A stretch of 64,000 nt of DNA from NCBI RefSeq assembly GCF_001597725.1, contig NZ_LUTR01000002.1, positions 248,001 through 312,000 on the forward strand, given 5' to 3'. The stretch is from Neptuniibacter marinus (lineage in GTDB: Bacteria > Pseudomonadota > Gammaproteobacteria > Pseudomonadales > Balneatricaceae). The stretch's first letter is position 1; every line of letters begins with the position of its first letter. Positions 40,967 to 55,420 of this stretch are shown here, piece after piece. The notes below the pieces were generated by a model. It worked only from the letters and a program-made list of their open reading frames with translations. It was not told the DNA's origin and searched no databases. The position numbers and the translations under genes were made by a program.

Positions 40967-42364
40967 TTAATAACCATTTAATTGGTCGATATATTCTGGC
41001 AGGAATAATGATATCTGAGGAACATAAGTAATCAGCATCAAGAAACCTAAGAGCAAACACAACCAAGGTAGACACGCCTTGATAACCCATATCATGTTTT
41101 CCCCGGTTATCCCGGCTGTGACAAAGAGATTGAGCCCCACCGGCGGGGTCAGCATCCCTATCTCCATATTCACCACCATAATGATGCCTAAATGGATAGG
41201 ATCGATACCCAGCTTCATAGCAATCGGGAACAAGATAGGCGCCATAATCAACAATATTGCTGAAGGCTCCATAAAGTTACCGGCAATCAATAACAAGATA
41301 TTGACTACGATGAGGAAGCCCCAAGCAGGTAAGCCCCAAGCAATAATTTGCTCAGCAATGGTATGAGGGATACGCTCTGTCGTCAGTACATGGGCAAACA
41401 GCATTGCGTTGGCAATGATAAATAGCAGCATCATTGAGACTTTAGATGCATCCAGCAACACTTTACGTACTTCCGGATCACTGATGGACTTAGGAATAGC
41501 AATAATCATCTGCACAGAGTTACGTACTGCTGCAGCAATGATATTCTCCCCCGATTTCTGCCAAGGAATGCCTTTCATAGGACCTATATCTCGGTACCCC
41601 ATCACAGCAATAAAATAGCCATAAACAGCCGCAACCGCCGCAGCTTCAGTTGGCGATGCCACACCACCGTATATAGAACCTAATACGATGATAATCAGCA
41701 TTAAGCCGCCTAAAGCAATCAAACCCGATTTAGCCAGCGCTTTAAAACCTGGGAAAGGCTGAGAAGGCAATCCTTTAACTCTCGCTACAATATAGATAGC
41801 GATCATCAAAATAAGACCCATCATCAAACCTGGAAGAAAGCCCGCCATAAACATGCGCGATGCAGATACTTCTGTAGCTGCAGCATAAACAAGCATCACA
41901 ATCGAAGGCGGTATCAAAATACCTAAAGTACCCGCATTGGCAATAACGCCCGCAGCAAATGCTTTTGGATAGCCGGAACGCACCATGCCTGCGATACAAA
42001 TAGTACCTATAGCCGCAACAGTGGCAGGCGATGAACCTGATACGGCTGCAAACAGCATACACGCCATAACCGATGCCATCGCTAAGCCGCCTCGAATATG
42101 ACCAACAGTATCAACTGCAAAGTTAATCAATCGTTTAGCAACACCGCCTGTTGATAGGAAGGATGAGGACAAAATAAAGAAAGGTATAGCGAGTAATGTA
42201 TAGTGTTCTGATGTCGCTTCAAATAGCTTCAACGAGATTGAAGCAAGGGAATCATTTGAAAACAACAGAATCGTTGTTACAGAAGATAAACCTAGAGCAA
42301 TAGCGATCGGCATACCGATCAACATGCAACCAAAAAGCATGATAAATAGCACGGCAATAGTCAT
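40967..42364 (-). CDS. dctM: TRAP dicarboxylate transporter, large permease subunit
   Basis: This 465-residue inner-membrane subunit with about 12-13 helices is the ion-coupled carrier of a tripartite transporter. Family motifs include MLFGCMLIGMPIAIALGLSS at the N-terminus, GSSPATVAAIGTI near residue 112, NAGTLGILIPPSIVMLVYA near 143 and VGLNLFVTAGIT near 425. It shares one base with dctQ (TAATG), so translation is coupled. Together with DctP and DctQ it takes up C4-dicarboxylates such as succinate, fumarate and malate, inferred from the neighbouring DctBD pair. Confidence 0.94.
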   Translation of the reverse strand: MTIAVLFIMLFGCMLIGMPIAIALGLSSVTTILLFSNDSLASISLKLFEATSEHYTLLAIPFFILSSSFLSTGGVAKRLINFAVDTVGHIRGGLAMASVMACMLFAAVSGSSPATVAAIGTICIAGMVRSGYPKAFAAGVIANAGTLGILIPPSIVMLVYAAATEVSASRMFMAGFLPGLMMGLILMIAIYIVARVKGLPSQPFPGFKALAKSGLIALGGLMLIIIVLGSIYGGVASPTEAAAVAAVYGYFIAVMGYRDIGPMKGIPWQKSGENIIAAAVRNSVQMIIAIPKSISDPEVRKVLLDASKVSMMLLFIIANAMLFAHVLTTERIPHTIAEQIIAWGLPAWGFLIVVNILLLIAGNFMEPSAILLIMAPILFPIAMKLGIDPIHLGIIMVVNMEIGMLTPPVGLNLFVTAGITGENMIWVIKACLPWLCLLLGFLMLITYVPQISLFLPEYIDQLNGY

Positions 42365-42954
42365 TATTTATCCCCTTCTTTAGATACTTTAGATACTTTC
42401 TGGGGCTGCTCATCACCAAGTGCTGTTTCTTTTAGCTCTTTAGCGATCTCCATAGATTCTTCCGCTTCATCAGCAAAATGAAAACCATCTGCTTGATTAG
42501 TCACAACCTTCCAGCCTAGTTGCAAGAAACGAATAATTAGTAAAACAAAACCGATGACAAGAATACTCATAGGAATCCACTTAGGTATAGGTAGATCCTC
42601 CAACTCAATTCCGATCATTTTCATCTTGCTTAGGTAGATCCAAGAACCGTAAAGAAACAGCCCGCAATAAACCAAGCATAATGCTACGGCCACTAACGTA
42701 ATAAAACGGTGTGTATTTTGAGGTAATAGTTTTACGAACACATCAACGCCGATGTGTGCACCTACTTTAACGCCGTAAGAGGCACCAAAAAGGACAAACC
42801 AAGCCGCAAGAAGAAGCGTTACTTCCTGCGCCCAGTGGATGCCTGCATTAAAACCAAAGCGAGCAATTACTTCAGCAAAAACAAGCAAGGTCATTGAAAC
42901 TAGAAGCGCAGATAAAAAGCCCTCTTCCAGCTTAGTTACGAGATTACGTACCAT
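42364..42954 (-). CDS. dctQ: TRAP dicarboxylate transporter, small permease subunit
   Basis: This 196-residue subunit has four membrane helices (about residues 15-34, 45-62, 85-108 and 130-150), with the family segment HWAQEVTLLLAAWFVLFGAS near residue 40. The C-terminal tail is long, charged and cytoplasmic (EESMEIAKELKETALGDEQP). Its stop overlaps the dctM ATG. It is 174 bases after dctP, with a hairpin between the two. Confidence 0.92.
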   Translation of the reverse strand: MVRNLVTKLEEGFLSALLVSMTLLVFAEVIARFGFNAGIHWAQEVTLLLAAWFVLFGASYGVKVGAHIGVDVFVKLLPQNTHRFITLVAVALCLVYCGLFLYGSWIYLSKMKMIGIELEDLPIPKWIPMSILVIGFVLLIIRFLQLGWKVVTNQADGFHFADEAEESMEIAKELKETALGDEQPQKVSKVSKEGDK

Positions 42955-43128: not shown

Positions 43129-44112
43129 TTAGTTGTTAGACGCTTCGGCAGCTTTGATTAGATCGGCACCGATCTGATCTTCAAACTTTTTCCAAACTGG
43201 CTTCATCGCTTCAACCCACTGAGCGCGTTCAGCGTCAGAAAGTGTTAGCACTTCAGAGCGTTTAGAATCAATAATCTTCTGCTTATCAGAATCCGCTTTC
43301 TGAGCAGCAATAGAATTACCATGTTTAATTGCTTCATCTAGCGCTTTCTTAACTTCAACTTTCAGATTGCTATCCAAGCCCATCCAAAATTCAGCAGAAG
43401 TTACCACTAAGTAATCAAGAACACCGTGGTTCGATTCTGTGATGTACGGCTGCACTTCGAAGAATTTTTTCGAGTAGATGTTAGACCATGTATTTTCTTG
43501 ACCATCAATTGCTTTAGTCTGAAGTAATGTGAATACTTCGGAGAATGGTTTTTTCAATGGTACAGCATCAACCGCTTCAAACTGCGCCTGAAGTACATCA
43601 GATGTCATGATGCGGAACTTTTTACCTGACGCATCACCTGGTACTTGTAACGGGTTGCTAGCAGAAAGCTGTTTCATACCATTATGCAGATAACCAAGAC
43701 CGACAAGGCCTTTCTTCTGCAGAGCATTCAATAATTTCTGGCCTTCTGGACCGTTCTGAAATTTCTCTACCGCTGCCATATCTTTAAATAGGAACGGAAG
43801 GTCAAAAATCTGAAGCGTTTTAGTGTACTTCTGGAATTTAGACAGTGAAGGCGCAGCCATCTGCACATCACCTAACAGCATAGCTTCAAGTACTTTGTTA
43901 TCACCAAAAAGCTGAGAGTTAGGAAATACTTTTACTTCAACCTTACCAGCAAGACGCTCATCAACAAGCTCTTTAAACTTAATTGCCATCTGGCCTTTAG
44001 GTGTGTTTTCAGCAACTACGTGTGAGAATTTAATCTCTACTGGAGCAGCGGAAACAGCTTGCGCTCCAAAAGTTAAAGCTAGGGTAGTGACTGCAGCAGT
44101 CAGTAAACGCAT
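43129..44112 (-). CDS. dctP: TRAP dicarboxylate transporter, periplasmic binding protein
   Basis: This 327-residue solute-binding protein has a signal peptide ending AQAVSAA (cleavage about residue 22) and begins mature EIKFSHVVAENTPKGQMAIK. The conserved arginine that binds the carboxylate is expected in KKFRIMTSDVLQAQFEAVDA near residue 150, and the DctP segment AIDGQENTWSNIYSKKFFEV near residue 213 is typical. AGGAG precedes the ATG. Transcription should start at the sigma-54 promoter 44216-44232, about 90 bases upstream. Confidence 0.94.
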   Translation of the reverse strand: MRLLTAAVTTLALTFGAQAVSAAPVEIKFSHVVAENTPKGQMAIKFKELVDERLAGKVEVKVFPNSQLFGDNKVLEAMLLGDVQMAAPSLSKFQKYTKTLQIFDLPFLFKDMAAVEKFQNGPEGQKLLNALQKKGLVGLGYLHNGMKQLSASNPLQVPGDASGKKFRIMTSDVLQAQFEAVDAVPLKKPFSEVFTLLQTKAIDGQENTWSNIYSKKFFEVQPYITESNHGVLDYLVVTSAEFWMGLDSNLKVEVKKALDEAIKHGNSIAAQKADSDKQKIIDSKRSEVLTLSDAERAQWVEAMKPVWKKFEDQIGADLIKAAEASNN

Positions 44113-44232: not shown

Positions 44233-44540
44233 CTCAGATAAAAACGTATATCGCTAAGCTGGAGAACCCATAGTTACTGATATAAATAGATAAACTACGG
44301 TTTAAAGAAAGCTCTATTCTTGAGCCGAAAACGGCGGATAACCACACATCCAAAAAAAATTTAAGGCGGATACTGACCCCTTTTTTGTAGAACAATAGTG
44401 GACGCAAAACCTTTTCCTATAGTTGTTTGATCTGCATCTATCTTATTGAGCTATAAGCGGTATACGAAAATATCACTTCACCTTAGTATAAATATACAGC
44501 TAATATGATCCCTAAACCTATGAAAAACAGGAGCTAGAGT
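44233..44540. other. Intergenic region before the chemoreceptor gene
   Basis: The AT-rich space contains no gene I can support. GCTCTATTCTTGAGC near 44310-44325 and two GGCGGATA repeats (44333, 44373) are possible activator sites for the upstream sigma-54 promoter, but I cannot assign them. A TATAAG box near 44452 could serve the chemoreceptor gene. Confidence 0.35.
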
Positions 44541-46151
44541 GTGAAACTAGATGGCCTTTCAATTCAAACAAAAGTAAACCTCTCATTAGCGGCTGTTTTT
44601 CTTATTATCTTAGTCAGCTCCCTAACCGCCATCTATAGAAGTGAATCGGGACTAGTTTCAGAAGTAGTAAAAAAGAACACCAGCGATACAGCAGATTCCT
44701 ATTTTGACAGTATAAATATACTGATGCTCAGTGGCGCAATGTCGAATCGTGGAGCGCTACAAAAAAAGATTTTAGCGAACCCCGATGTGTTGGAAGCAAG
44801 GATTATTCGTGGGGATATAGTCTCCAACATATACGGCCCAGGCACCGCGGATTCAAAAATTGAAGATGAGCTTGATCTTAGAGCAATGGGTGGCGAACAT
44901 ATAGTTGAGGAGGTTAATGATACGCAAGGACACCGCCTCACGATTATTACTCCTATGAAAGCCCTATCTGATTACAAAGGGACCAACTGCTTACTCTGCC
45001 ACCAAACGGAAGAGGGTAATGTTTTAGGTGCAGTACGCGTAACCTATTCTTTTGAAAATTTAGATAACACCATTCGTAGCAATCTAATTAGCGTTGCCGT
45101 CACAGAGCTAGTGCTCTTCATTGGCGGACTCATCCTTATCAGTTTACTTTTGGGTCACCTGGTTATCCGCCCTGTACGCAAAATGGGTAACACTATTAAT
45201 ACCATCCATAAAGATTCTAACCTTAAGCTCAGAATCGAGGTCAACTCCAAAGATGAGATAGGCATGATGTCTAACTCTCTAAATGTCATGTTGGAAGATT
45301 TCCACGGCAGTTTAAGCAAAGTAAGTTCCACCGTTCACCAACTAAGTACATCAAGCACCTCGATTAATGATATTGCCGACTTAGCGAATAGCGCAGTTCA
45401 TAGCCAACAGGTACAAACCGATGCGGTTGCGGTTGCAATGGAACAGATGGAAATATCCACCCAAAATGTAGATACGAATGCCAGCAACACAGTTTCAGCT
45501 TCTGATATGGCATTAAAACAAAGCCAAGAAGGTACCCTCATCACCGAGCAGGCACTGAATGCCATCGAGCAGCTAAAAAATAACATTGATCGTGCTCTCG
45601 AAGTTATCAACAAACTTGACCAACAAAGTCAGAGTGTCGGCACTGTTCTAGAGGTAATTCAAAAAATAGCAGAGCAAACCAACCTCCTCGCACTTAACGC
45701 CGCAATCGAAGCAGCACGCGCTGGTGAGCAAGGCCGTGGCTTCTCCGTAGTTGCAGATGAGGTGCGTACTTTAGCCAGTAAAACGCGCTCCTCCACGGAA
45801 GAGATCAATACCATTATCGAAGAACTGCAAGAAAATGCTAAAGACGCAGTAACGGTCATGGATCAAGCACATATTAGCGCTGAGGCGGGTGTCACAAAAG
45901 TACAAGAGACCTCTGTGGCTCTTACAAAGATCTCTGACGAGGTACGTAGGATCAACGATATGAACCATATGGTTTCATCTTCAGCAAAAGAGCAAACAGT
46001 GATGACGTCTAGCGTAGATACAAGCGTCCAAGAGATTGCTCGAACAGCTGCACAAACCTCATCCCGTGCTGGAAAACTAAATCAAGTGGCCCATGAACTG
46101 AATACTTTAGCTGGGCAGCTGGAATCTATGGTGCAGAAGTTCAAACTTTAA
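44541..46151 (+). CDS. Methyl-accepting chemotaxis protein with c-type haem motif in sensor domain
   Basis: This 536-residue chemoreceptor has helix TM1 at about 13-32, a periplasmic domain to about 180, TM2 at 182-207 ([20 protein letters not shown]), HAMP to about 260 and a signalling domain with the hairpin tip [20 protein letters not shown] near 375. NCLLCHQ at 149-155 is a CxxCH haem-c site in the periplasmic part, 26 residues before TM2, as in haem-containing receptors of Geobacter. It could sense redox state, oxygen, NO or a ligand. The start is GTG with AGGAG in front. It lies between dctP and dctD. Confidence 0.9.
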
Positions 46152-46266: not shown

Positions 46267-47631
46267 CTATTTAAAATCTTTCTTATCTAGGCCATATTTC
46301 TTCATTTTGTCGTACAGTGTTTTCCTTGGTAGACCTAAGCTGATTAATGTTTCTTTGATAGACCCTCCACAACGAGATAACTCAGCTTGGATCAACATAC
46401 GTTCAAATTGGTCTACTTTATCAGGCAAGGTCATATGGTTGCTTGCGTTAACATCAGTAATCGGCCTATTTTCAAAATCGAATGAACAGCTCTCCCCGAG
46501 TAATACATAGCGTTCAGCCAAATTACGCAACTCACGCACATTGCCAGGCCAATCATGCATCATTAAACTATGCATCCGTTCAGGGGATAATAAAGGTACC
46601 TCTCGGCCATATTGAGAAGATGCTATTAAGGCAAAATGTTGAAATAACATGCCAACATCATCTCTACGCTCACGTAAGGCTGGAATATCAACCCGCACTA
46701 CATTTAAGCGATAATACAGATCCTCTCTAAATTCACCTCGCTCCGCCGCTTCCTTTAAATCCACTTTAGTGGCGGCGATTACACGCAGATCCAGAGGTAT
46801 AATTTCATTCGCGCCTAAGCGCTCTATTGACCTATCTTCCAATACCCTCAATAACTTAATCTGCAAAGTCATCGGCATGCTCTCTATCTCATCGAGAAAT
46901 AGAGTACCTTCATTGGCATATTCAAATTTTCCGATCCGTCGAGCCTTAGCATCAGTAAACGCACCTTTCTCATGCCCAAACAGCTCTGACTCAATTAAAT
47001 TTTCAGGCACCGCACCACAATTAATCGCTACAAAATTTTTATCGCTACGATAACTATGTTCATGAATATAACGCGCGAGTAGGTCTTTCCCTGTACCGGT
47101 TTCACCTAAAATCAAAATATCAGCGGGGGTATCCGCTATGGTATGCACTAAGTTTCGTACTTGGGCAATAGGTCCTGTTTTACCAATAATTCGAGGGCCC
47201 GGCACACTTTGCGCTTCAAGCTCCTGCTTTAGACGACGGTTTTCAATAATAAGATGACGCTTTTCTATAGCTCGACGTACCACATCAAGCAACAGCTCAG
47301 AGGAAAAGGGTTTTTCTATAAAGTCATAAGCACCGTCACGCATTGCGCTTACAGCCATAGATATATCACCATGTCCAGTAATCAAAATAACGGGCAGCGT
47401 GGCATCTAAAGCCACCACTTGCTTCATCAAATCTAAACCATCTATACCGGGTAGATTGATATCGGTAATTAAAATCCCTGGCCAATCAGATGTAATAATA
47501 TTCAACGCTTGTTCGGCTGTTTCTAGCGCCGTAACGTCATACCCTCCAAGCTCTAAAGCCTGCCCCGCTGCCAAACGGATATGCTTCTCATCATCAACAA
47601 GAATAATGGGCAGGGGACTCTGATCACTCAT
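46267..47631 (-). CDS. dctD: C4-dicarboxylate response regulator, sigma-54 activator
   Basis: This 454-residue NtrC-class activator has a receiver domain at 8-120 with phosphorylated Asp57 (ITDINLPGIDG). Its AAA+ domain (145-380) carries Walker A GETGTGKDLLARYIH near 176 and Walker B GTLFLDEIESMP. A Fis-type helix-turn-helix forms the last 45 residues (KETLISLGLPRKTLYDKMKK). The sigma-54 contact loop reads GAFTDA (223-228) instead of GAFTGA. ATG at 47631 with GGAA before it is used, not the TTG at 47643. DctB lies 21 bases upstream. Confidence 0.93.
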   Translation of the reverse strand: MSDQSPLPIILVDDEKHIRLAAGQALELGGYDVTALETAEQALNIITSDWPGILITDINLPGIDGLDLMKQVVALDATLPVILITGHGDISMAVSAMRDGAYDFIEKPFSSELLLDVVRRAIEKRHLIIENRRLKQELEAQSVPGPRIIGKTGPIAQVRNLVHTIADTPADILILGETGTGKDLLARYIHEHSYRSDKNFVAINCGAVPENLIESELFGHEKGAFTDAKARRIGKFEYANEGTLFLDEIESMPMTLQIKLLRVLEDRSIERLGANEIIPLDLRVIAATKVDLKEAAERGEFREDLYYRLNVVRVDIPALRERRDDVGMLFQHFALIASSQYGREVPLLSPERMHSLMMHDWPGNVRELRNLAERYVLLGESCSFDFENRPITDVNASNHMTLPDKVDQFERMLIQAELSRCGGSIKETLISLGLPRKTLYDKMKKYGLDKKDFK

Positions 47632-47652
47632 ATAAGATTCCAACTATCTATT

Positions 47653-49908
47653 TTAAGAAATAACATTATCAGGTGCTTGAGCTATAGGTAAACAAATCTT
47701 AAAGACAGCACCACCTTGGGGATGATTCTCTACTGATAATTGCCCTCCCATACTTTCAATAATTCGGAATGAGATTGATAGCCCTAAACCTAAACCTTGC
47801 CCTGCTTTTTTTGTTGTATAAAACGGTTCAAAAACTCGATTTAAATCATCTTCAGGAACCCCTAGCCCATGGTCTCTCACCAGTAGAACCGTCCACTTTG
47901 GTTCGTTATATAGTTCGATATCAACCACGGGGGCCTGTTCGCTTTCCATCGCCTGAAGCGCATTACTGATCAGATTCACTAGCACTTGCTCTAAACGCAC
48001 AGTATCACCCATTACATAACTACGATCTAAGTCATGTGGCCAGTTAACCTGGGCTTTTACCTTATTAAGGCGGCCATACATTATCGACATAGCCCCATCA
48101 TGTACGTTTTTAAGACAGACAGGTTCAGCATTTCCTGACGTTTTTCGTGAGAACTCTTTCAATGGATGGATAATTTTAGCCATCCTTTCCGTTAATTTAC
48201 TTATCTCATTCAAATTCTTTTCAGCCGTATCCGTACGCCCTAGCTTAAGAAAAGCCTGTGCATTATCAGCATAAGTACGAATAGCCGTTAGCGGTTGATT
48301 AAGCTCATGGTTAATACCAGCTGACATCTGCCCTAATACCGCCAGTTTTGCCGTCTGAATCAACTCATCTTGTGTATTCTGATGTTTTTCAACCTCTTCC
48401 AACAGCTTTCTATTCGCATCTGTTAGATCAGCCGTTCGCTCTTCAACACGGTGTTCAAGAAGCTCTCGAGCATGCTTCAGCTCCTCTTCATACTGCTTAC
48501 GTTGCGTAATATCGTGGATCGTGACAATAAACCGTTTAATCGCACCATAATCCATATGCCCAATAATTAATTCAATTGGAAAAACCGAACCGTTTTTACG
48601 TAAGCCCCGCGCCTCGGTGAATAACTCACTTTGACGATCCTCATCTGATGCGGTCAGATGCTGCCAACAGATTGCTCTATCTTCTTGGGCTAAGAGTTTA
48701 CTGATATATTCAGATCTAACATTGACCTCATCATACCCAAATAGCTTCTCACCCATAGAGTTCATGCTTTCAATCCGCCCTTGAGCATCTAAGGTAATCA
48801 AGCCCGCTTGGGTATTATCAATTATCGCCCTAACTCTCGTTTCATTCTCTTCTAGTGCTTTTGTTTCCAGTAATTTAAAACGTGCCCGCTCCCGAGTAAT
48901 ACGCTGTCGAGTCAGTAATACCATGATCAACAAAACTAAGGCGATAAAGATAAACCCTATAGTCAAAGCGGTATAAAACATTTTAACTTTGACAGACTTA
49001 GTACTCGCTAAGACAACAACCGTAAGACCGCTATCTTCTAAGTCTCTACTTTGTAGAAGAAATTCTTTCGCTTGAACCCCGTCTAAGGCTTCGTTATTGA
49101 TCCTATCCCCATCCACCAGTGTGACGAGTGTACCGCCCTCTTCACGCTCTTTTTTCTCAATAATATCTAGGGCTGTTAATTGGTGATCCCCGTACCTTAA
49201 ACTTTCTGCTATTCGCTGAACCGCTTGTTGAGATAAAGGTTTAAGGGTTCGAAACTTCCAGTCGGTCTGAGTTGATATAAAAATCACCCCATCTTCATCT
49301 GTTACTAAGATGTCTAAATCAGGGTCTGTCCAATCCGATTCAATCTCATTTAAATCAATTTTAACAACCACGACACCAACAATTTGATGATGCTCGTAAA
49401 CTGGGTAGGAAAAGTAATAGCCTCTTTTTTTCGACACAGAGCCTAACGCAAAATAACGCCCTACTTTTCCTTCCATGGCATCTTTAAAGTAGGGCCTAAA
49501 CGCATAGTTCTTACCTACAAAAGAGCGCTCATTCGCCCAATTGCTTGCAGCAATAGTTAGCCCGAGGTTATTCATCAAATACACATCTGCAGCATTGATC
49601 GATTGATTAACCTGTTCCAGATAGATATTAGCCCGCTGTGTCGATAAATTATCCGGCCATTGAAGCGCATCGGTCAAAGTAGAATGAGATGATAAAAGTT
49701 TAGGTAGGTCTTTATAGCGATCCAACTTTTGCTGAAGGCTCAAAATATAACGGTTTAAATCAGCACTAGAACGATGCTGTAGCTCATCCAGCCCTTGAGT
49801 ACGACTGATTAAGGTTGTTTGCACAACAACAACGACAAAAGTAGAAACCAGAAAGGTCACGAATAGCAATCGGTAACGACGCCAAGTTGTCGATAAAATA
49901 TGAGACAT
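47653..49908 (-). CDS. dctB: C4-dicarboxylate sensor histidine kinase with PAS domain
   Basis: This 751-residue membrane kinase has TM1 (about 14-34), a double-Cache periplasmic domain (to about 315), TM2 (316-340), a PAS domain (about 365-480, TQAGLITLDAQGRIESMNSM), a coiled coil, HisKA with the phospho-histidine in AGINHELNQPLTAIRTYADN, and HATPase (NLISNALQAME, DHGLGVP, GQGLGLGLSI). An added PAS before the kinase core is an extension relative to simple DctB proteins. It likely senses succinate, fumarate or malate and phosphorylates DctD. Confidence 0.92.
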   Translation of the reverse strand: MSHILSTTWRRYRLLFVTFLVSTFVVVVVQTTLISRTQGLDELQHRSSADLNRYILSLQQKLDRYKDLPKLLSSHSTLTDALQWPDNLSTQRANIYLEQVNQSINAADVYLMNNLGLTIAASNWANERSFVGKNYAFRPYFKDAMEGKVGRYFALGSVSKKRGYYFSYPVYEHHQIVGVVVVKIDLNEIESDWTDPDLDILVTDEDGVIFISTQTDWKFRTLKPLSQQAVQRIAESLRYGDHQLTALDIIEKKEREEGGTLVTLVDGDRINNEALDGVQAKEFLLQSRDLEDSGLTVVVLASTKSVKVKMFYTALTIGFIFIALVLLIMVLLTRQRITRERARFKLLETKALEENETRVRAIIDNTQAGLITLDAQGRIESMNSMGEKLFGYDEVNVRSEYISKLLAQEDRAICWQHLTASDEDRQSELFTEARGLRKNGSVFPIELIIGHMDYGAIKRFIVTIHDITQRKQYEEELKHARELLEHRVEERTADLTDANRKLLEEVEKHQNTQDELIQTAKLAVLGQMSAGINHELNQPLTAIRTYADNAQAFLKLGRTDTAEKNLNEISKLTERMAKIIHPLKEFSRKTSGNAEPVCLKNVHDGAMSIMYGRLNKVKAQVNWPHDLDRSYVMGDTVRLEQVLVNLISNALQAMESEQAPVVDIELYNEPKWTVLLVRDHGLGVPEDDLNRVFEPFYTTKKAGQGLGLGLSISFRIIESMGGQLSVENHPQGGAVFKICLPIAQAPDNVIS

Positions 49909-54442: not shown

Positions 54443-55420
54443 ATGCCGCGTGTCGTAAAATCTATTCTAGCCGCTAGTGGTTTACTCGTCCTTGCAGGGT
54501 GTGACAGCGGCGATGCACCCTCAGCATGGAAAGAGTACGCCCTCCGAGGGGCGTACACGGCAAGCATATCCACAGAAGGAACCTACAGCGTGATCGGCTC
54601 ATTCGATCACGGTGGAAGTTTATGGGAACTCGACAACCACGAGCGTCTCTACAATTGGAATCATCGAGCAAATACACCTTCTATTATTGCCGCGACCGCC
54701 TTCTCTCCTGAAGAGAGTTATGCCGCCACAGCGGACCAACAGAATCTTGTTCTTTGGAGCCTAAGCACAGGTCAGGCAGAAGGGTTCTGGAGCTCTCCAG
54801 CCGAAATAATGCAAATGGATCTATCACCCAATGGCAATTATGCTCTTTTAGGATTAGCTAACCATACCGCCGTTTATTTTGATGTGAAAAGAGGTGGGGT
54901 TAAACGGACATTTCGCCATGATGCAAGAGTAAGGAGCGTCGATCTAAGCGATGATGGTTCTTTAGCTTTAACGGGATCAGACGCTTACAAAGTCAAACTC
55001 TGGAGTGTTGAAACCGGCGAACTACTACAAGAGCTAACCTTAGGAAATGTAGTCGATACCGTTGCTCTTTCACCTAATAAAAAAACGGCCTTTAGTTCAG
55101 GTAGTTTGGATAAAGCGATTATCTGGGATATTGATTCAGGTAATGAAATTCATACACTGAGCAACATCGCTAGTTTTTCTCAAAAGAGAATCAGCTATCT
55201 CAGTGCCCGTTTTTCCCCTGACAGCCAGCAACTACTCACAGGTACCGCCTCAGGTTTAGTGCAATTATGGGATGTAACCACTGGGGAAGAGTTAAAAAGC
55301 TGGAGAGTTCACCGCAGAGACGCCTACGGCCCAGTGCAAGCTGGAGTCTATGCCGTTGGCTTTGGCCAAGGGAAATATTATGCCCTTGCCTCTAATGGCA
55401 TAATGAACGAACTGAAATAA
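54443..55420 (+). CDS. WD40-repeat lipoprotein
   Basis: This 325-residue lipoprotein has a lipobox LVLAGC with modified Cys20 followed by Asp, which would favour inner-membrane retention by the E. coli rule. The rest forms a beta-propeller of about six or seven WD40-type blades, for example VKLWSVETGELLQELTL near residue 190, KAIIWDIDSGNEIHTL near 228 and GLVQLWDVTTGEELKSW near 272. AAGGA precedes the ATG. WD40 propellers are scaffolds, so it probably binds partner proteins in the periplasm. The partner is unknown. It is only 10 bases after rsd and probably cotranscribed with it. Confidence 0.85.
   Translation: MPRVVKSILAASGLLVLAGCDSGDAPSAWKEYALRGAYTASISTEGTYSVIGSFDHGGSLWELDNHERLYNWNHRANTPSIIAATAFSPEESYAATADQQNLVLWSLSTGQAEGFWSSPAEIMQMDLSPNGNYALLGLANHTAVYFDVKRGGVKRTFRHDARVRSVDLSDDGSLALTGSDAYKVKLWSVETGELLQELTLGNVVDTVALSPNKKTAFSSGSLDKAIIWDIDSGNEIHTLSNIASFSQKRISYLSARFSPDSQQLLTGTASGLVQLWDVTTGEELKSWRVHRRDAYGPVQAGVYAVGFGQGKYYALASNGIMNELK

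Follow-up and report, generated by a model that had tools for sequence, protein, structure and literature searches.

The genome of Neptuniibacter marinus (3.45 Mb, 99.87% complete) encodes a chemoreceptor with a CxxCH motif, and the gene lies between those for a TRAP dicarboxylate transporter and those for its regulators. The locus raises the question of whether this receptor carries a haem c, which signal it would then sense and whether that signal has anything to do with the neighbouring transporter. The gene was studied within a window of 64,000 nucleotides, the whole stretch of contig NZ_LUTR01000002.1 that was analysed (positions 248,001 to 312,000 of the forward strand). Positions given below are those of the window unless a locus is named.

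The receptor gene and the position of the motif

The receptor is encoded on the forward strand by an open reading frame of 536 amino acids (44541–46151), which begins with GTG and is preceded by AGGAG at 44529–44533, 7 bases short of the start codon. The protein matched the Pfam models PF00015 (MCPsignal, residues 337–501, 147.7 bits against a cut-off of 34.6) and PF00672 (HAMP, residues 203–252, 39.6 bits against a cut-off of 25). With both domains above their curated cut-offs and two transmembrane (TM) helices, it is a methyl-accepting chemotaxis protein. NCLLCHQ occupies residues 149–155, codon 149 beginning at 44985, and the haem-c attachment motif within it, C150-L-L-C153-H154, is encoded by 44988–45002 on the forward strand. 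The receptor frame, its Pfam domains and the codon positions thus confirm what had been read from the sequence alone. C150 and C153 are the sole cysteines of the receptor, and CxxCH arose by chance in 3 of 20000 shuffles of the whole protein and in 6 of 20000 shuffles of residues 33–180.

Hydropathy peaks were found at about residues 14–32 and 182–209, with residues 33–180 between them as the periplasmic part. Taken together with the HAMP domain at 203–252, these peaks place the motif in the periplasm about 26 residues ahead of TM2. This is where the sequence-only reading had put it, and neither line of evidence gave a cytoplasmic position for the motif.

Conservation of the motif and of a methionine

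Close relatives were collected by a pattern-seeded search, in which one of the six seed patterns touches CxxCH, of a collection in which 84,980 species are represented by one genome each. The 36 relatives come from Neptuniibacter, Marinobacterium, Neptunomonas, Nitrincola and Pontibacterium, plus Oceanospirillaceae/Oceanospirillales, and the nearest are from Neptuniibacter (L009, 95% identity across the first 220 residues). Conservation of the motif had been proposed as a check on the earlier interpretation; CxxCH was kept in all 36 and no close relative had lost it. The receptor frame is 531–536 amino acids long in 34 of the relatives but 433 in L029 and 643 in L012, which may be due to assembly errors or altered C-termini. 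A search for viral relatives of the receptor found none.

When a sensor alignment of 18 rows (A2) was used as a profile, the domain was found in 40 of 274 gammaproteobacterial genomes including the source genome, at 52 places. All 49 distinct rows examined from the 51 other places kept CxxCH, the weakest having an E-value of 3e-10. One place in G232 and one weak partial match in G064 were left out of this set, and the rows that were dropped, at E 17–71, lacked the motif and were chance matches. A 31-row family alignment (A4), whose members are 18–64% identical to the window protein, matched 106 of the 398 genomes of a phylum sample. At 30 loci among the matches listed, CxxCH was present in 30 of the 30 rows that cover it, the remaining row being a 143-amino-acid fragment in L179, and M62 in 31 of 31. 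Some proteins are repeated among the rows (L046 within L106; L048 and L150; L056 and L152; the window protein, L045 and L154). No haem-less relative was seen in the searched sets, though the profiles used for searching contain CxxCH and so favour matches that bear it.

Only six columns are invariant over the 31 rows of A4, namely M62 (codon at 44724–44726, forward strand), P138, C150, C153, H154 and G163. M67 is invariant in the close relatives but drops to 81% in A4. Two neighbouring copies of the haem-c sensor were observed in one genome (L106, 1986–2471 and 3895–4356), in a 543-amino-acid receptor frame and a 229-amino-acid frame that ends soon past the sensor.

Relation to known haem-c sensors

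By itself, the window protein gave no match to a sensor family, whether in Pfam, in NCBIfam or among the PDB sequences, and the profile of the 18-row alignment did not match GSU0582 in the PDB. The NCBIfam matches of the full receptor (MCP models such as CtpM, and YfiN-like models) were rejected as sensor assignments, their matches being to the region from about residue 156 on and not to the sensor core.

Among all PDB sequences, the best match of the A4 profile was GSU0582 (3b47), with E 9.4e-5 over profile positions 14–148. Ranks 2–9 were chains of c-type cytochromes at E 0.015 or worse, matched around the motif. In the alignment with GSU0582, CxxCH falls on CxxCH and, with H109 of the chain taken as His143, M62 falls on Met60. 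The methionine at this distal-ligand position of the N-terminal helix is, at residue level only, the one found in all 31 rows.

The available text of PMC8396549 describes a GSU0935 crystal with His144-Met60 ligation in one subunit and a GSU0582 crystal in which the haem ligands are His143 and water. Met60 binds the reduced haem and leaves on oxidation, and CO and NO replace Met60 in both proteins (PMC8396549, same text). Given that M62 aligns with Met60 and that Met60 is a haem ligand in the Geobacter proteins, ligation by H154, the predicted proximal ligand, and M62, the predicted distal one, may be expected in the window protein.

Two Pfam families cover haem-c Cache sensors of this kind. 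PF21563 (Mcp40H-20_sensor), which gave 159.8 bits with GSU0582, did not match the window protein. Eight of the 31 A4 members matched it at E<=1 and, among the six that were scanned singly, only the divergent L117 passed the cut-off (29.7 bits against 27). PF11845 did not match the window protein at E<=1 either; it gave weak matches to 7 of the 31 members, the best at 16.1 bits, and none reached the cut-off of 24.1. From this second family a 2026 preprint (PMC12889525) defined sCache_heme, starting from DUF3365/Tll0287, as a Cache fold with CxxCH inserted between β3 and β4. The preprint, as available to us in part, gives the motif as 99% conserved and takes in GSU0582 and GSU0935. The GSU0582 stretch did not match PF11845 at E<=0.05, although the available text of that preprint counts GSU0582 in its family.

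When the sensor was aligned with PF11845 by hhalign, CxxCH fell on CxxCH at P 9e-6. Masking the motif on both sides left the register unchanged but gave only P 0.059, and no match came out when the masked alignments were compared globally. A receptor family member outside A4 (L049, 1483–1974) scored 22.1 bits with PF11845 over most of its length and 15.6 bits with PF21563, both below cut-off. The weak masked alignment and the sub-threshold scores of L049 make homology to Tll0287 beyond CxxCH suggestive only, as judged from sequence comparison. L049 may be a bridge between the two models. The source genome also encodes a separate, canonical Tll0287-like protein with PF11845 (L075, G000:C26:9517-9990) of about 199 amino acids with the motif CLGCH.

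The window protein shares with sCache_heme, so far as the available text of PMC12889525 describes it, the single Cache domain, the CxxCH in a β3-β4 insertion and the fused signalling module. It differs from the PF11845 set in its spacing, G163 lying 9 residues past H154 whereas the distance is mostly 27–31 in 31 PF11845 sequences. It also differs from Tll0287, which has axial Cys/His ligation, since it has an invariant methionine and no third cysteine. With GSU0582 and GSU0935 (PDB 3B47 and 3B42; PF21563) it has in common a periplasmic Cache/PAS-like chemoreceptor architecture, a CxxCH closely spaced to the next strand and the methionine on the N-terminal helix that aligns with Met60. Unlike them, it is too divergent for PF21563, and it comes from another phylum and another gene context. 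Within the haem-c Cache sensors, its place is best taken to be on the side of GSU0582 and GSU0935, as a divergent member. DcrA of Desulfovibrio vulgaris, by the title of its paper a c-type haem chemoreceptor for oxygen or redox potential, is similar by description only.

Predicted fold of the sensor domain

AlphaFold2 was run on the monomer with the 36 close relatives (37 rows), and the models lack haem. The model of residues 1–260 had a pLDDT of 82.3 with strands at 83–90, 121–127, 130–140 and 161–170, and the sensor-only model had a pLDDT of 76.4. In both models the motif sits between the last two strands (130–140 and 161–170) at moderate pLDDT. In the sensor-only model, residues 150–153 at the motif (119–122 in model numbering) form a short helix, which is absent from the longer model. 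The domain is predicted to span residues 32–181 (44634–45083, forward strand) and, on these models, its fold is that of a single Cache domain.

Foldseek with the sensor-only model ranked GSU0935 first (3b42_B, E 2.0e-5, 16% identity, rmsd 13.6), the high rmsd perhaps arising because the crystal is a swapped dimer. With the longer model GSU0935 was fourth, behind three integrative models of long receptors. VIA-align gave WalK with Z 13.3 (rmsd 3.1, 123 residues aligned), DcuS with Z 11.3 (4.1, 120) and Tll0287 with Z 10.1 (3.3, 120), and neither GSU0935 nor GSU0582 was among the 50 matches listed in either run. Given that WalK and DcuS are haem-free Cache domains and outscore Tll0287, the fold alone is no sign of haem. 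The kinship with GSU0582 and GSU0935 at which the sequence-only reading had hinted was borne out by the A4 profile match, which extends across the whole domain, and by the first rank of GSU0935 with the sensor-only model.

Probable haem attachment

The source genome has CcmE, which was found in 36 of the 40 domain-bearing genomes against 210 of 274 genomes overall. Of the four domain-bearing genomes without it, three match ResB, G081 only in part, and G033, which is 86% complete, matches neither.

The CxxCH could instead be a thiol-disulfide or metal site that holds no haem. The haem of the window protein is a prediction and G033, at 86% completeness, shows neither maturation protein, which leaves some room for such a site. 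Yet across the 31 members H154 and M62 vary no more than the cysteines do, and they fall on residues that bind the haem in a haem protein of solved structure; nearly all of the domain-bearing genomes have CcmE or at least a partial match to ResB. We regard a haem-free site as barely credible and infer that, very probably, the outer sensor holds a covalently bound haem, a conclusion that is drawn from sequence conservation and alignment.

The dct neighbourhood

The receptor gene was reported by the sequence-only reading to lie between dctP and dctD-dctB, and the reading frames and Pfam domains show this arrangement to be real. On one side, all on the reverse strand, are genes for the large TRAP permease subunit DctM (40967–42364, PF06808, 358.5 bits), the small subunit DctQ (42364–42954, PF04290, 102.9 bits) and the solute-binding protein DctP (43129–44112, PF03480, E 5.8e-97). 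On the other side, also on the reverse strand, are genes for a DctD-like sigma-54 response regulator (46267–47643; PF00072, PF00158 and PF02954) and a DctB-like sensor kinase with dCache_1 and PAS domains (47653–49908; PF02743 at 46.6 bits against a cut-off of 45, and PF02518), both named from their domains and the gene order. Transcription of the receptor gene diverges from that of dctP and converges with that of dctD, and the gene shares no operon with them. Elsewhere in the window, 54443–55420 encodes a 325-amino-acid protein with WD40 β-propeller repeats (PF00400 and several eukaryote-type WD40 models).

Synteny was examined by tblastn with the window neighbours in flanks of at most 6 kb, contig ends falling inside the flanks for several loci (e.g. 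L015, L018, L036, L037 and L042). Among the 36 close relatives, dctP, dctQ and dctM were near the receptor in 24 each, dctD in 31 and dctB in 30. Of the two genes dctP and dctD, 21 relatives had both, 3 only dctP, 10 only dctD and 2 neither, so that at least one was present in 34 and one or both were missing from the flanks in 15. In the two loci with neither gene, L017 and L043, ilvA and pyk flank the receptor directly, and these housekeeping genes are also within the flanks in 22 (ilvA) and 26 (pyk) of the 36. In a Nitrincola locus (L032, 1824–5631) dctPQM are replaced by genes for a binding protein of the NMT1_3 type, a long permease of the DctM type and a Usp protein, which we take to be a TAXI-type TRAP transporter. 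In L014, the locus of Neptuniibacter caesariensis MED92, three further genes separate the receptor from dctD. Around 20 distant relatives, with 13.7–18.3 kb searched for each at E 1e-6, dctPQM were found in none; L141 has a match to a DctB/DctD-like kinase and regulator about 5 kb off, and three more have a weak regulator match.

These results bear on the possibility that the receptor senses a dicarboxylate-like ligand, or DctP itself, in its Cache pocket and directs taxis to the transporter substrate, the haem being structural or modulatory. Single Cache domains such as those of DcuS and CitA bind carboxylates, and domains of this type score well structurally against the sensor. The presence of dctP, dctD or both near the receptor in nearly all close relatives also fits such a role. 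Against this, two close relatives have neither gene, ten have dctD without dctP, one of these having the other TRAP-type transporter, none of the 20 distant relatives searched has dctPQM nearby, and it is the haem set that is found among the invariant residues. Sensing of the transporter substrate is thus highly improbable, and the proposal made from the sequence alone that taxis is linked to dicarboxylate use did not stand up to the neighbour counts. Given that the receptor is kept with differing neighbours and that ilvA and pyk are kept too, a stable gene order fits better than a dedicated module, bearing in mind that the loci were chosen by the receptor, which makes it the constant element, while the transporter varies. 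The dct linkage is probably local gene order, with the dct genes just stable neighbours, and a functional tie between them and the receptor is no more than a possibility.

The upstream region

The intergenic region between dctP and the receptor in eight Neptuniibacter-type loci is poorly conserved (mean column identity 63%) but for short blocks. One of these is TTGAYCTnnRTC, and about 20 bases on there is a largely conserved TATAC block in which T.TAC is invariant. In the window the first block corresponds to a possible FNR/ANR-type regulator site, TTGATCTGCATCTA (44427–44440, forward strand), seen as a footprint centred 107 bp ahead of the start codon, with TATAC downstream at 44461–44465. 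The pattern TTGAY-N4-RTC starting 85–130 bp before the start codon was present in 14 of 37 loci and absent from 23, with chance expectations of 0.09 loci from base shuffles and 0.06 from first-order Markov sequences; the fixed position favours the site but, given that the 14 loci are related, this excess is not a probability.

The FNR consensus is TTGATNNNNATCAA. Mismatches to it lie mainly in the second half; the window and L009 have one, and each of the remaining twelve loci has two or three. Taken alone, such sites are at chance level in the window (7 with one mismatch against 3.85 expected), and a per-locus shuffle of the FNR-like match gave p 0.013 for the window and mostly worse values at other loci. 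Scans for sigma-28 and sigma-54 sites near the start codon found none above chance. The source genome encodes Fnr (NCBIfam NF008365, 327.5 bits against 228). On this sequence evidence, FNR-type control, by which the receptor would be made in low oxygen, fits.

Proposed signal and mechanism

The reading that we prefer, with moderate confidence, is that of a transmembrane chemoreceptor with a single haem c in a periplasmic single Cache domain, in which M62 acts as a switch for redox taxis. C150 and C153 would hold the haem c, with H154 as the proximal ligand of the iron; the distal one would be M62, which lies on the long N-terminal helix. Oxidation of the haem, or binding of NO, would free M62; its release would shift the N-terminal helix and TM1/TM2, and the shift would pass via HAMP to the kinase-control tip and alter CheA activity. 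The cell would in this way steer along the redox gradient of its surroundings. Redox as the signal and the direction of the response are both predictions.

The same haem-c receptor may have NO as its signal, NO displacing M62 from the ferrous haem to give taxis while redox state is only a precondition. According to the available text of PMC12889525, a signalling-type sCache_heme protein has the properties of an NO sensor, releasing NO slowly and forming no stable complex with O2, and the displacement of Met60 by CO and NO in the Geobacter sensors (PMC8396549, available text) points the same way. The stand-alone protein of P. putida, by comparison, loses NO fast. So do the NnrS encoded in the source genome and the FNR-like site before the gene in the 14 loci. 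The target studied in PMC12889525, on the other hand, is without an axial Cys, and the main text of the preprint, so far as it was available, uses neither the word methionine nor Met60, whereas the present branch has an invariant methionine like the Geobacter sensors for which a redox switch was proposed. We judge NO to be the signal with appreciable but clearly lower likelihood, and a redox switch at M62 is retained as the preferred reading.

The receptor is of a known kind that was described recently, and the literature found on haem-c chemoreceptors, as available in part, concerns mainly Geobacter plus DcrA of Desulfovibrio. The marine branch with its six invariant residues makes the Met switch of Geobacter and the NO-sensor model of PMC12889525, as their available texts present them, directly comparable. 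The family alignment is offered for the sensor domain, most of whose scanned members are missed by the Pfam and NCBIfam models. The sharp prediction is that M62 is the distal ligand, and the lead to follow is FNR-type control. More tentatively, the sensor may represent a widespread His/Met branch of haem-c Cache chemoreceptors that is for the most part not covered by models, present in 40 of the 274 sampled gammaproteobacterial genomes, with the invariant methionine as a redox or NO switch and, in the Neptuniibacter group, under control of FNR in low oxygen. If this were true, marine heterotrophs would use such receptors to steer at the oxic-anoxic edge.
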